Origin: Deltaproteobacteria bacterium
Lineage (GTDB): Bacteria > Desulfobacterota > Desulfuromonadia > Geobacterales > Geobacteraceae
Direction: 5' to 3'
Length of the DNA stretch: 64,000 nucleotides
NCBI GenBank assembly: GCA_021848385.1
Contig: JAJZUQ010000008.1
Location: 1-64,000, forward strand
The translations under genes were made by a program, and so were the position numbers. Each line of letters starts with the position of its first letter. Positions within the stretch are counted from its first letter, which is position 1. Below are positions 10,962 to 51,575 of this stretch, in pieces. Under the pieces are notes generated by a model. The model worked only from the letters and a program-made list of their open reading frames with translations. It made no database searches and was not told where the DNA came from.

Positions 10962-11060
10962 GTATGACGTTTCCTTTATTTCGTTATTTCAAGAGGATAG
11001 CTATAGCACAGCAGGCAGGAAATAGCAAGCCGCGGGGGGCTGACGATGGAGTTCCCAATT

Positions 11061-11177
11061 ATTGATCCGGTGATTACACATATGAGTGGTAGGGGTTAGG
11101 CTTGCCTCGCCCAATCTGGGGCGGGGGCACCCCGCCCCTACATAAGGGTTTCAATGTTTAATCGCCGGAGCAATAAT
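11061..11177. repeat. Palindromic dispersed repeat family A, copy 1
   Basis: attgatccggtgattacacatatg...tgtttaatcgccggagcaataat; reverse complement closely matches 41471-41583. Confidence 0.8.
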
Positions 11178-40734: not shown

Positions 40735-40863
40735 TGGTTTATTGTGAATTTGATACGGCATGAACTCCCTTTGCGACGATCTCCCCAGAAAGTCGGGGGT
40801 GACCAGGAGCTTGACAGCATGAAGAGTGGATTATTTCTTCTGACAGCCATTATGTCTAAATTC

Positions 40864-41043
40864 GGCAGTTGAACACTGCCTGCACTCGTACTAAAGGGCT
40901 ATTTCTGTAATTCTAGGCTCATTGCGCTGCAGCCGATCAACTCACCCTGCGGGTTCGGACAGGATCGGCTGCGGACGCTTCATTTCGCCAAGAATTACGA
41001 CGAAATACCCCTCATGTACTCCTTCCGGCAGTATTCAACTGCC
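40864..41043. repeat. Long imperfect-palindrome element family B, copy 1
   Basis: ggcagttgaacactgcc...ggcagtattcaactgcc terminal inverted repeats; near-identical inverted copy at 51366-51540. Confidence 0.85.
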
Positions 41044-41242
41044 ATATCAGGTTTATTCATTGTTCTGGGTAATAGATTAAGGGAAGTTTATCGGACTGCA
41101 ACCGGCTGTCAACGGAGGGTCGTACAAAGAGGGGGCATAGGTGGGCGGAGTTGAAAAGGGTTTGGAAGCTCAACAAGCTTGTCTGTAGACAGATGGTGCC
41201 GGGTTTGCGCCTATGGACGCGCAAACCCGGCGGGTGTCTGAC

Positions 41243-41452: not shown

Positions 41453-41470
41453 GGGAAAGTCTCCATTGTT

Positions 41471-41583
41471 GTTGCCCCGGCGATTAAACATTGAAACCCG
41501 TCTGTAGGGGCGGGGTGCCCCCGTCCCAGATTGGGCGAGGCAAGCCTAGCCCCTACCATTCGTATGTTTAATCGCCGGAGCAC
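41471..41583. repeat. Palindromic dispersed repeat family A, copy 2
   Basis: ccccggcgattaaacat...atgtttaatcgccggagc terminal inverted repeats. Confidence 0.82.
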
Positions 41584-41719
41584 TATATGATAACTATGGC
41601 TGCATGATAGCGGAAAAAGTCTGTTCCGGTCAAGCCACCAAGCTTTTTTGTTGTTGCCGCCGTGAGTTTTTGCTATTACTGAAGCTCATTCAAGTCCTCT
41701 GTGATAAAGGAGATAGAGC

Positions 41720-44433: not shown

Positions 44434-45948
44434 CTACGGAACGATCTTGACGTTGTCTTTCCCTTGGAAAGAGTGGCCGTCGTAGGTCTGTCCTGTCAGC
44501 GTTGCTTCCACACTCTGGTCGGTGAGTGTCAGTGCCTCGGTGCTGACATGTACGACGAGATCGGGAAAGCCGTCGCTGTTCACATCCGTTATGGACGCCA
44601 TCGGTGTGCCGTTTCCCTTGAGCTTCACCTGCGCACTTGCCAGGCTCACCGTCGTCGGGTCCACCTCTGTCGTATCGAACGTGGCGCTGCCGAGGATCGC
44701 CACCGGTACGGTGCCGTTCGAGCCAAGGTTGATGCTGTTTGGGTATGTGTCCGGTTTGATGTCGATGGCTACATTCACAATGCCGTTGGCGTCGCTCAGC
44801 ACCCATGCGTCCAAGGTGTTTGATGGGGTGCCGAACAGCACGGTGGCCCGATTGTTTGAGGGATCGTAAACCGCCATATTGGGGCCAGACCACCCGGAAG
44901 GTGGCCCACCGTTTACGGAAAGCTTCGTCCATGCCCAGGCGAGGGATGGGCTCTCTCCTGCTACTGGATTGACTATCCACAGGTCATAACTGCCTGCATT
45001 GTACATCACTAGCATCATCCGGTTGGTAGCAGGATCATAAAAGGCTGGTGGTCCACTGAAGGGAGTCGGAGCTCCAGGAGAGCCTTCGGCAATCAGGTTC
45101 GTCCATACCGGTGTCGCCACGTTCGTGGCATTGCTTAATCCCCAAACCGCATTCGTCCAGGCACCGCTTCCCTGAGCCGATCCCCCTGCGACAAACAAGC
45201 GATTGCTGGCGGCATCATATGCATAGCTAGGACTGTATTGTCCAGGTGGCGGACCACTCACAGGGAAAAGCTGTGTCCATACGGGAGAACCTCCCAGACC
45301 ATCGGCGTTTGACAACACCCAGGCATCAGAATAGGTGCTTCCTCCCCAACCGCCGCCGTTATGTCCGCCAAAGATGACCATGCTGTTGGTTGCCGGATCA
45401 TAGCCTGCTGCGACCGAATGGCGGGGTGATGGCGATGCTCCCGCCGGATTTAGTGAAATCCATTCGGGAGTCCCACCGGTGCCGTTCGCATTCGTCAACA
45501 CCCAGACACCATTGCTGACAGGCAAACACCCCCCCACACATCCGCCGAAAACGATCATTCTGTTGTGTGCGGAATCGTACACCGCCGCATGGTTTCCCGT
45601 ATTGGGCGGTGGTGAACCACTGGGCAACAGTTTTGTCCATGCAGGGGTTCCGCTCAGGCCGTTCGCCCCCGTCAGGACCCAGACTTCATCTTGCCAGCTT
45701 GTGTTACGCCCGTAGAGAATCAGCCGGTTTGTAGCGGCATCGAGAACCACTGCGGGCTGGTACATAACCAGTTGAGGCGGGCCACCGGTTGGAGCCAATT
45801 TTAACCAACTCTGTGCGTTTGCATTGCCTGTAAATGTTGGGAGGGTGAAAAGCATTCCCCCTATTCCGACCAGTACCGTGCATATTTTGGCTATGGCTCC
45901 CATTGTAACTATTCGGATTCTTTCCCATCTGCCTTCTATTTGGCTCAT
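44434..45948 (-). CDS. Secreted Kelch-type beta-propeller protein with C-terminal cell-surface domain
   Basis: Signal peptide; repeated YDPATNxMxxFGG/VWVLxxAxGxGGTPxWxxL units; IDIKPDTYPNSINLGSNGTVPVAILGS. Confidence 0.8.
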   Translation of the reverse strand: MSQIEGRWERIRIVTMGAIAKICTVLVGIGGMLFTLPTFTGNANAQSWLKLAPTGGPPQLVMYQPAVVLDAATNRLILYGRNTSWQDEVWVLTGANGLSGTPAWTKLLPSGSPPPNTGNHAAVYDSAHNRMIVFGGCVGGCLPVSNGVWVLTNANGTGGTPEWISLNPAGASPSPRHSVAAGYDPATNSMVIFGGHNGGGWGGSTYSDAWVLSNADGLGGSPVWTQLFPVSGPPPGQYSPSYAYDAASNRLFVAGGSAQGSGAWTNAVWGLSNATNVATPVWTNLIAEGSPGAPTPFSGPPAFYDPATNRMMLVMYNAGSYDLWIVNPVAGESPSLAWAWTKLSVNGGPPSGWSGPNMAVYDPSNNRATVLFGTPSNTLDAWVLSDANGIVNVAIDIKPDTYPNSINLGSNGTVPVAILGSATFDTTEVDPTTVSLASAQVKLKGNGTPMASITDVNSDGFPDLVVHVSTEALTLTDQSVEATLTGQTYDGHSFQGKDNVKIVP

Positions 45949-46231: not shown

Positions 46232-46316
46232 CTCTTCGGCAGCTCGGCCATCTTTCCCGGAACAAAGATCCGTCGCTTTCCGACTCCTCCTCGCGGAGGG
46301 TCAGCGTTTCGGTGGA
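46232..46316 (-). ncRNA. GEMM-I-like (cyclic-dinucleotide) riboswitch candidate in the 5' leader of the Kelch-type gene
   Basis: minus strand: gaaacgctgaccctccGCGAggaggagtcggaaagcgacggatctttgttccgggaaagatggccgagctgccgaa; GNRA-capped stem, AAAGC core, GCCGAGCTGCCG receptor-like end. Confidence 0.55.
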
Positions 46317-46530: not shown

Positions 46531-47049
46531 ATGAAAGAAAAAATCGAGATCATCCAGGCCGACATCACGAAACTTTCCGTAGATGCCATCGTCAATGCGG
46601 CCAACAATACCCTGCTGGGCGGCGGAGGGGTAGACGGTGCCATCCACCGGGCGGCGGGGCCGGATTTGGTGGCGGAATGCGCCACCTTGGGCGGCTGCGC
46701 CACGGGGGACGCGAAGATCACGAAGGGGTATAAACTACCGGCACGGCATGTGATCCACACGGTGGGGCCGGTCTGGCACGGGGGGAACGAGGGGGAGCCG
46801 GAGTTGCTGAGAAGCTGCTACCGCCGCTGCTTCCAGGTGGCCCACGACAATGGCCTGACCTCCATCGCCTTCCCCGCCATCAGCGCCGGGGTCTTCGGCT
46901 ATCCCATGACGAAGGGGTGCGAGGTCGCCATGACGGAGGCGAAAACTGCCCTGGCCGCCAATCCGAAACTGGAGCGGGTGGTGTTCGTCCCCTTTAGCGC
47001 CGAGGCGTTGGCCATTTACCGGGAAACGTTCGAAAAGGTCTTCGCGTGA
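46531..47049 (+). CDS. Macro-domain protein (O-acetyl-ADP-ribose deacetylase-like)
   Basis: [34 protein letters not shown]. Confidence 0.95.
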
Positions 47050-51338: not shown

Positions 51339-51365
51339 CGTTACCACTATTTTGAACATAAAAAC

Positions 51366-51540
51366 GGCAGTTTAATGCTGCCGGAAGGAGTACATGAGGG
51401 GTATTTCGTCGTAATTCTTGGTGAAATGAAGCGTCCGCAGCCGATCCTGTCCGAACCCGCAAGTTGATCGGATGCAGCGCAATGAGCCTGGAATTACAGA
51501 AATAGCCCTTTAGTACGAGTGCAGGCAGTGTTCAACTGCC
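51366..51540. repeat. Long imperfect-palindrome element family B, copy 2 (inverted relative to copy 1)
   Basis: ggcagtttaatgctgcc...ggcagtgttcaactgcc; reverse complement near-identical to 40864-41043. Confidence 0.85.
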
Positions 51541-51575
51541 GAATAGAGGTTGAATTAACCGGAACAGCCGCTTCC

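Follow-up and report, generated by a model that had tools for sequence, protein, structure and literature searches.

A probable hairpin MITE with IS1380-like ends in a Geobacteraceae genome shares its tip with repeats of other phyla

The IS1380 family of insertion sequences includes ISEcp1, which moves CTX-M resistance genes. In the accessible text of the relevant reports, the left inverted repeat (IRL) of ISEcp1 is printed as CCTAGATTCTACGT (PMC7864471), and 5-bp direct repeats are given for IS1247, another member of the family (PMC3281130). Among Geobacter repeats, Chunjie of G. uraniireducens Rf4 is described in a review as an intergenic MITE of 178-235 bp with conserved ends and direct repeats (PMC10969869), and the available parts of the genome papers on G. 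metallireducens and G. bemidjiensis describe multicopy nucleotide sequences that are palindrome-based intergenic repeats (PMC2700814, PMC2996986). Hairpins recur in two further systems. REP/BIME sequences, which are linked to RAYT transposases, are intergenic palindromes that sometimes occur as inverted pairs, and the intrastrand triplex motif TM_ECO is presented, in the accessible text, as a G/C-rich hairpin repeat of many bacterial genomes (PMC4666352).

The element described here lies in a 64,000-nucleotide stretch (positions 1 to 64,000 of contig JAJZUQ010000008.1; hereafter the window) of a draft Geobacteraceae genome, G000 (3.26 Mb, 122 contigs). Two inverted hairpin copies, 10.3 kb apart, were found at the positions given by the original prediction. 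The two share ~94% identity, in keeping with the near-identity that had been claimed, and copy 2 shows the expected 5-nt deletion in its loop; each copy ends, as described, in GGCAGTTGAAYACTGCC-type mini-palindromes. The inner stem gcagccgatc/gatcggctgc, proposed for both copies, is perfect in copy 1 but has one mismatch in copy 2 (gcatccgatc). Folding of the whole element as a single long hairpin was confirmed for both copies against dinucleotide-preserving shuffles, with z scores of -10.3 (RNA) and -8.2 (DNA) for copy 1 and -5.5 (DNA) for copy 2, and 0 of 200 shuffles folded as well as the element copies. It was also correct that no ORF explains the element, since only short ORFs are found at its edges, overlapping them. 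The predicted spans lie inside the element, but the true element is longer (40855-41051 and 51357-51549): when 23 copies were aligned with their flanks, conservation extended outward on both sides to CCT...AGG. The features are as follows.

40855..41051, + strand (the tip strand is +): copy 1, a hairpin element of 197 bp upstream of sucC; the conserved block reaches TCT/CCT...AGG
40855..40880, + strand: left terminal repeat of copy 1, including the mini-palindrome GGCAGTTGAACACTGCC
41027..41051, - strand: right terminal repeat of copy 1, including GGCAGTTGAATACTGCC
40929..40938, + strand: left strand of the tip stem of copy 1 (GCAGCCGATC)
40939..40961, + strand: conserved tip of copy 1, AACTCACCC-TGC-GGGTTCGGACA (covariance model R1)
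40963..40972, + strand: right strand of the tip stem of copy 1 (GATCGGCTGC)
51357..51549, - strand: copy 2, a hairpin element of 193 bp; the orthologous site in genome G002 is without the element
51448..51465, - strand: tip of copy 2 with the 5-nt deletion (AACTTGCGGGTTCGGACA), mini-stem lost
51352..51356, left of copy 2 on the + strand: target-site duplication TTGAA, present as a single copy at G002:C12:327859-327863
51550..51554, right of copy 2 on the + strand: target-site duplication TTGAA; flanks identical, empty site in G002

The R1 model covers the tip and its stem (59 positions, 14 pairs); it matches copy 1 at 40921-40979 (E 3.5e-14) and gives no match at copy 2. The window also holds a c-di-GMP-I riboswitch (Rfam RF01051, 39.7 bits; 46235-46315, - strand) between ORFs 44434-45948 and 46531-47049, and a second, unrelated repeat of ~115 bp at 41469-41585 and 11060-11176, of which G000 has about a dozen further copies at 83-94% identity.

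The predicted pair does exist, but a search of G000 with copy 1 returned 23 near-full copies, the window pair among them (171-181 nt matched, identity 91-100%), and partial copies beside these. The window pair therefore belongs to a repeat family, termed subfamily A. The elements of G000 are ~193-203 bp long, multi-copy and non-coding; ~17-bp inverted ends (CCTRAAWWCGGCAGTTG) enclose one long imperfect hairpin without a gene, and insertion occurs between genes with duplication of a 5-bp target of the form NTNAN. In a fixed register, identical 5-bp flanks were present at seven of the 23 copies, copy 2 among them, and 16 copies were without them. Random re-pairing of left and right flanks (10,000 trials, 23 copies) yielded a mean of 0.51 and a maximum of 5 identical pairs, and a shift of the right flank by 1-3 bases left 0 of 23. 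In another genome, G042, six of nine copies with both ends readable had identical 5-bp flanks. Sixteen identical duplications from these and other copies, one of which (from L023) was read by eye, gave the consensus N-T-N-A-N, with T in 15/16 and A in 16/16. For copy 2, G002 provides a precise empty site, where the flanks adjoin, overlapping by exactly TTGAA, and the joined flanks align gap-free; copy 2 is also absent from G001 and G003. Copy 1 has no intact target duplication, and its site in G002 is without the element, in a neighbourhood too diverged for a precise empty site.

Four full copies of subfamily A are present in G002, and a record titled uncultured Geobacter (L121) holds elements that match this subfamily closely. 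More diverged elements of the genus have the core alone in common with it. Each of the four genomes of the genus (G000-G003) holds subfamily B, with 24 to 34 matching stretches; these counts list some elements as two rows and, for G000 and G002, include A cores. Subfamily B comes in two forms, a longer one that has the tip and a shorter one that lacks it. At one orthologous intergenic site, the long form of B is found in G000 and G003 (L073, L071), the short form in G002 (L085) and an element of another subfamily in G001. Comparison of L085 with L071, L073 and L110 suggests a hotspot or in-place replacement across species of the genus. Some copies may decay through cross-hairpin deletion, leaving solo ends. 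Solo element ends occur in G000 at C21:25409, C33:21372 and C70:8171, C122:45487 is a 63-bp deletion derivative, and only a 38-bp end fragment is found at G003:C1:166515; L061, L099, L100 and L101 (solo ends and the 63-bp miniature) look like cross-hairpin deletions with one terminal palindrome left. G042 has seen a recent burst of the element, with 60 matches in the R1 covariance-model search and, in 20 stretches fetched, nearly identical elements that start with CCTAGATTCGGCAGTTGG and end with CCGGTTTTAGG.

A MITE was one of the options of the original prediction, and it is the one that held: the 5-bp duplications, the empty site in G002, the copy number of this non-coding element and its IS1380-like ends identify it as a MITE. 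We consider that the feature is probably a ~200-bp non-autonomous DNA transposon moved in trans by an IS1380-family DDE transposase, which would bind the ends. Over 13-15 bp, the ends of subfamily B (CCTGAATCCGTGAG) agree with terminal repeats found in IS1380-family insertion sequences: at four IS1380 loci (L289, L292, L294 and L298) the ends read CCTGAATCCGTGA(G), identical to the 13-15 bases at the subfamily B termini. In subfamily A, only the first 8-9 bp match. The elements of G042 start with CCTAGATTC, as does the ISEcp1 IRL. To judge from these sequences, trans-mobilisation by an IS1380-type transposase is likely. The ends of 31 IS1380 loci were taken from an automatic scan that accepts only CC-type ends starting with C/T pairs, and many of these loci gave no convincing end pair.

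A survey of 345 sampled genomes of the phylum detected IS1380-family transposases (NF033539) in 57 at E <= 1e-40; 47 exceeded the curated cut-off. Within the family Geobacteraceae, one of 48 genomes (G007) had a transposase above the cut-off, and its IS1380 ends (CCTGGGTTT...) differ from those of the element. No intact IS1380 transposase was found in G000-G003; G001 contains an N-terminal fragment and G000 a single match (E 4.9e-4). Since the transposase is absent or decayed in the G000 draft, the copies there may now be immobile. In the search for an autonomous partner near partial G000 copies, element ends were read on C122, C54, C72, C15, C64, C65, C63, C21, C33, C70 and C94; the ORFs listed, those around C21, C33 and C70, are ordinary-looking genes with no transposase seen. 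When 2371 stop-to-stop frames of loci L112-L191 were clustered, no gene linked to the element across lineages emerged: the clusters consisted of unrelated families or of frames running through the repeat. Long frames through the repeats (L150, L190 and similar loci) form protein-like clusters across loci and may be annotated as spurious proteins. A search for the tip inside full IS1380 loci gave one look-alike (L289), which lies outside the insertion sequence.

The hairpin ends in a 23-base tip, AACTCGCCC-TNY-GGGCTCARACA, that is found on unrelated yet complementary stems in Acidithiobacillus, Zoogloea, Nitrospirae, Acidobacteria and others. An exact-pattern scan of the species-genome collection (AACTCRCCCTN{2,5}GGGYTCRRACA) returned at least 120 matching stretches; from base frequencies, we estimate a chance expectation of fewer than ten. 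Among the matches listed, 80 loci of the at least 120 stretches, record titles included Zoogloea, Rhodoferax, Acidithiobacillus, Thiobacillus, Azoarcus, Denitromonas, Nitrospirae, Desulfobacterales, Geobacter, Acidobacteria, Chitinivibrionales, Armatimonadetes, Bacteroides and Clostridia; because many of these records are metagenome bins, phyla with a single record may be contamination. From 133 tip matches, 118 of them with full flanks, 66 non-redundant loci with 75-nt flanks were drawn, and arm complementarity exceeded the 99th percentile of between-locus arm exchange in 46 of them and did not in 20. Across 60 diverse sequences, 77.9% of cells were paired versus 58.6% in shuffles (0 of 500 as high), and the covariation analysis that had been called for gave a score of 0.489 versus 0.174 for shuffled sequences and 0.263 at the best slide. 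The four-pair mini-stem shows G-C to A-U double changes in eight sequences. As the sequences were picked by the tip pattern, conservation within the pattern is partly by construction, whereas stem pairing is not. In L270 and L279 the tip is shortened (AACTCGCTTCGCTCAGACA) and the mini-stem smaller, a hint that R1 does not capture the whole family.

The spread of the tip is patchy, like that of mobile DNA. R1 matched 11 of 48 genomes and 6 of 14 genera in the family (E <= 0.001), and 48 of 345 sampled genomes and 33 of 224 genera in the phylum (E <= 1e-5). In 15 genomes, each chosen for holding a scan locus, the counts ranged from 2 to 62 (Zoogloea dura 62, Chitinivibrionales 43, Silvimonas terrae 24, Denitromonas halophila 22, Acidithiobacillus sulfurivorans 21). 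Plasmid sequences searched for the element gave no match with two elements, and viral contigs gave one tip match. When 117 tip-bearing sites were scanned for CC-type ends, IS1380-like ends with matching flanks were found at a few of them: L156 (TTCAT) and L229 (CAGAA), the latter in G007. L137, L228 and L116 have IS1380-like ends with flanks identical at 4/5 positions, and all five elements measure 198-199 bp. Acidithiobacillus-type copies have CCTAAAAACGGCAGTTG ends, the same as those of the element; the Zoogloea copies and five Nitrospirae copies showed no IS1380-like ends. In Zoogloea dura (G391, L325-L344), longer repeats contain the tip hairpins as closely spaced inverted pairs, much like BIMEs, and Denitromonas units likewise occur as close inverted pairs. 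With IS1380-like ends in some lineages and none in Zoogloea and Nitrospirae, the tip seems common to differently-ended elements.

The hairpin is polar. TTCGCT occurs in 15 left and 14 right arms of the 66 sites, and its reverse complement in 1 and 0, respectively. A plain palindrome would place the complement in the opposite arm, and counts of single 6-mers overlap the top of the shuffled sets (maximum 17), so that the polarity counts as evidence and the number does not. On the strand complementary to the tip motif, a GNA loop is present at 103 of 133 sites (GCA 51, GAA 43, GTA 7, GGA 2), where the A is fixed by the search pattern and the G is free. GNA triloops closed by a C-G pair form very stable DNA mini-hairpins; the complementary strand would carry a compact GNA loop. 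Extraordinarily stable hairpins have been described, in an account whose available part does not name GNA (PMC10527192). The tip and the repeated TTCGCT-type boxes might be kept by selection for a DNA hairpin, and a host or transposon protein might recognise the tip in that form.

The hairpin could instead be a transcript, a structured RNA acting in trans or in cis that has spread as repeats and whose tip is an RNA-protein or RNA-ligand site. The strong tip-stem covariation across the 60 diverse sequences and the strong RNA folding agree with such a role, and two weak pointers suggest transcripts of the complementary strand: in tandem-gene contexts of the Geobacter-like subfamilies A and B, this strand was gene-sense in 17 of 24 cases and the tip strand in 7 of 24, and A-C mismatches outnumber G-T mismatches on the tip strand. 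The orientation bias was dropped as a candidate signal when it vanished in the diverse set (27 versus 26); these contexts rest on longest-ORF gene calls rather than a gene finder, and 15 of 97 diverse sites lie inside a long frame, whether or not these frames are real genes. Arm mismatches on the tip strand at 52 non-redundant loci comprised 76 G-T, 101 A-C and 489 others; G-T and A-C are both depleted relative to the others, which gives no sign of G-U tolerance on this strand. Rfam gave no match at the gathering level for the element and 18 diverse loci, and chance-level matches only at a relaxed threshold. On these counts, a DNA-level role is weakly favoured. The surroundings of copy 1 show just two weak promoter-like matches and nothing resembling a terminator, and the near-identity of the copies reflects recent insertion, with its precise empty site. 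The structured ncRNA that the original prediction had entertained thus finds no backing in Rfam, in an excess of G-U over A-C or in a consistent gene orientation, and we regard it as quite unlikely. The same prediction had also proposed the two copies as a site for inversion of the intervening dapF-to-beta-HAD segment, as their inverted arrangement would allow. Here, sucC, dapF and the copy-2 site are collinear in G001, G002 and G003, with the same order and relative orientation across both sites; none of these genomes has the copy 2 element, and G000 contains 21 further near-full copies. Inversion is already refuted at the level of fixed arrangements, and as an explanation of the pair it is extremely improbable.

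Two other readings concern how the repeats move. REP/BIME-like repeats mobilised by a RAYT (HUH, single-strand) transposase, with the hairpin as substrate, would account for palindromic, intergenic, multi-copy elements, for the close inverted pairs of Zoogloea and Denitromonas and for a tip loop that is strand-specific, with GNA on one strand. Target duplications and a precise empty site are, however, unexpected from RAYT/IS200-type transposition, and both are found here, as are terminal inverted ends on an element of ~200 bp, which makes this mode of movement highly improbable. The same MITE might instead be mobilised by a DDE transposase of a non-IS1380 family; other DDE families with CC ends and 5-bp target-site duplications exist (IS1634). 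None of the IS1380 elements examined had the full A-type end (...CGGCAGTTG), and the few duplications readable at IS1380 loci (TTTTT, GGGAC) do not follow the NTNAN preference. Against this stand the 13-15 bp of subfamily B ends that equal IS1380 ends at four loci and a target-site duplication of the same length as in IS1380, so that a mobiliser from outside the family seems unlikely. We therefore retain the MITE moved in trans by an IS1380-family transposase as the preferred reading.

More tentatively, the tip and the strand-polar TTCGCT-type boxes might define an undescribed superfamily of structured elements over several phyla, with different ends and with the tip as a protein-read recognition site, a reading that is possible rather than probable. 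If it is true, the tip hairpin would be read on one strand, with its GNA loop, by a conserved protein; it would have been combined with IS1380-like ends in Geobacter-like bacteria and Acidithiobacillus and with other ends elsewhere, and the unit conserved by evolution would be the tip, not the transposase ends. A tip that is nearly constant across phyla, on stems that are rewritten with their pairing kept, predicts an unnamed binding partner, and the R1 covariance model is now available for counting and mapping the family. If the IS1380 link is right, a non-autonomous partner class would be added to the IS1380 family. The MITE kind is already known; the conservation of the tip across phyla is the part worth pursuing. 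In the literature searched, with subscription journals and supplements outside reach, no description of this tip was found.

Among the known systems, TM_ECO was rejected as a match, because the consensus printed in the accessible text, CCCTCNCCC...GGGNGAGGG...GGGNGAGGG, is a different sequence (PMC4666352). The G. metallireducens and G. bemidjiensis repeats possibly overlap with the element; in the available parts of the papers they are treated for regulation and insertion, with no cross-phylum tip (PMC2700814, PMC2996986). Chunjie, although similar in size, is probably another family, given one R1 match in G033, which we take to be G. uraniireducens Rf4, versus 38 full Chunjie copies. REP/BIME sequences differ from the elements described here, which have 5-bp target duplications and terminal repeats. 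The IS1380 family, as represented by ISEcp1 and IS1247 in the accessible reports, is alike in its ends (CCTGAATCCGTGAG / CCTAGATTC) and its 5-bp duplications; the elements here differ in being ~200 bp long, without a transposase, and in having a hairpin interior that resembles no IS1380 element seen at these loci. Bacterial MITEs usually keep their ends and lose their middle, whereas here the reverse is seen.
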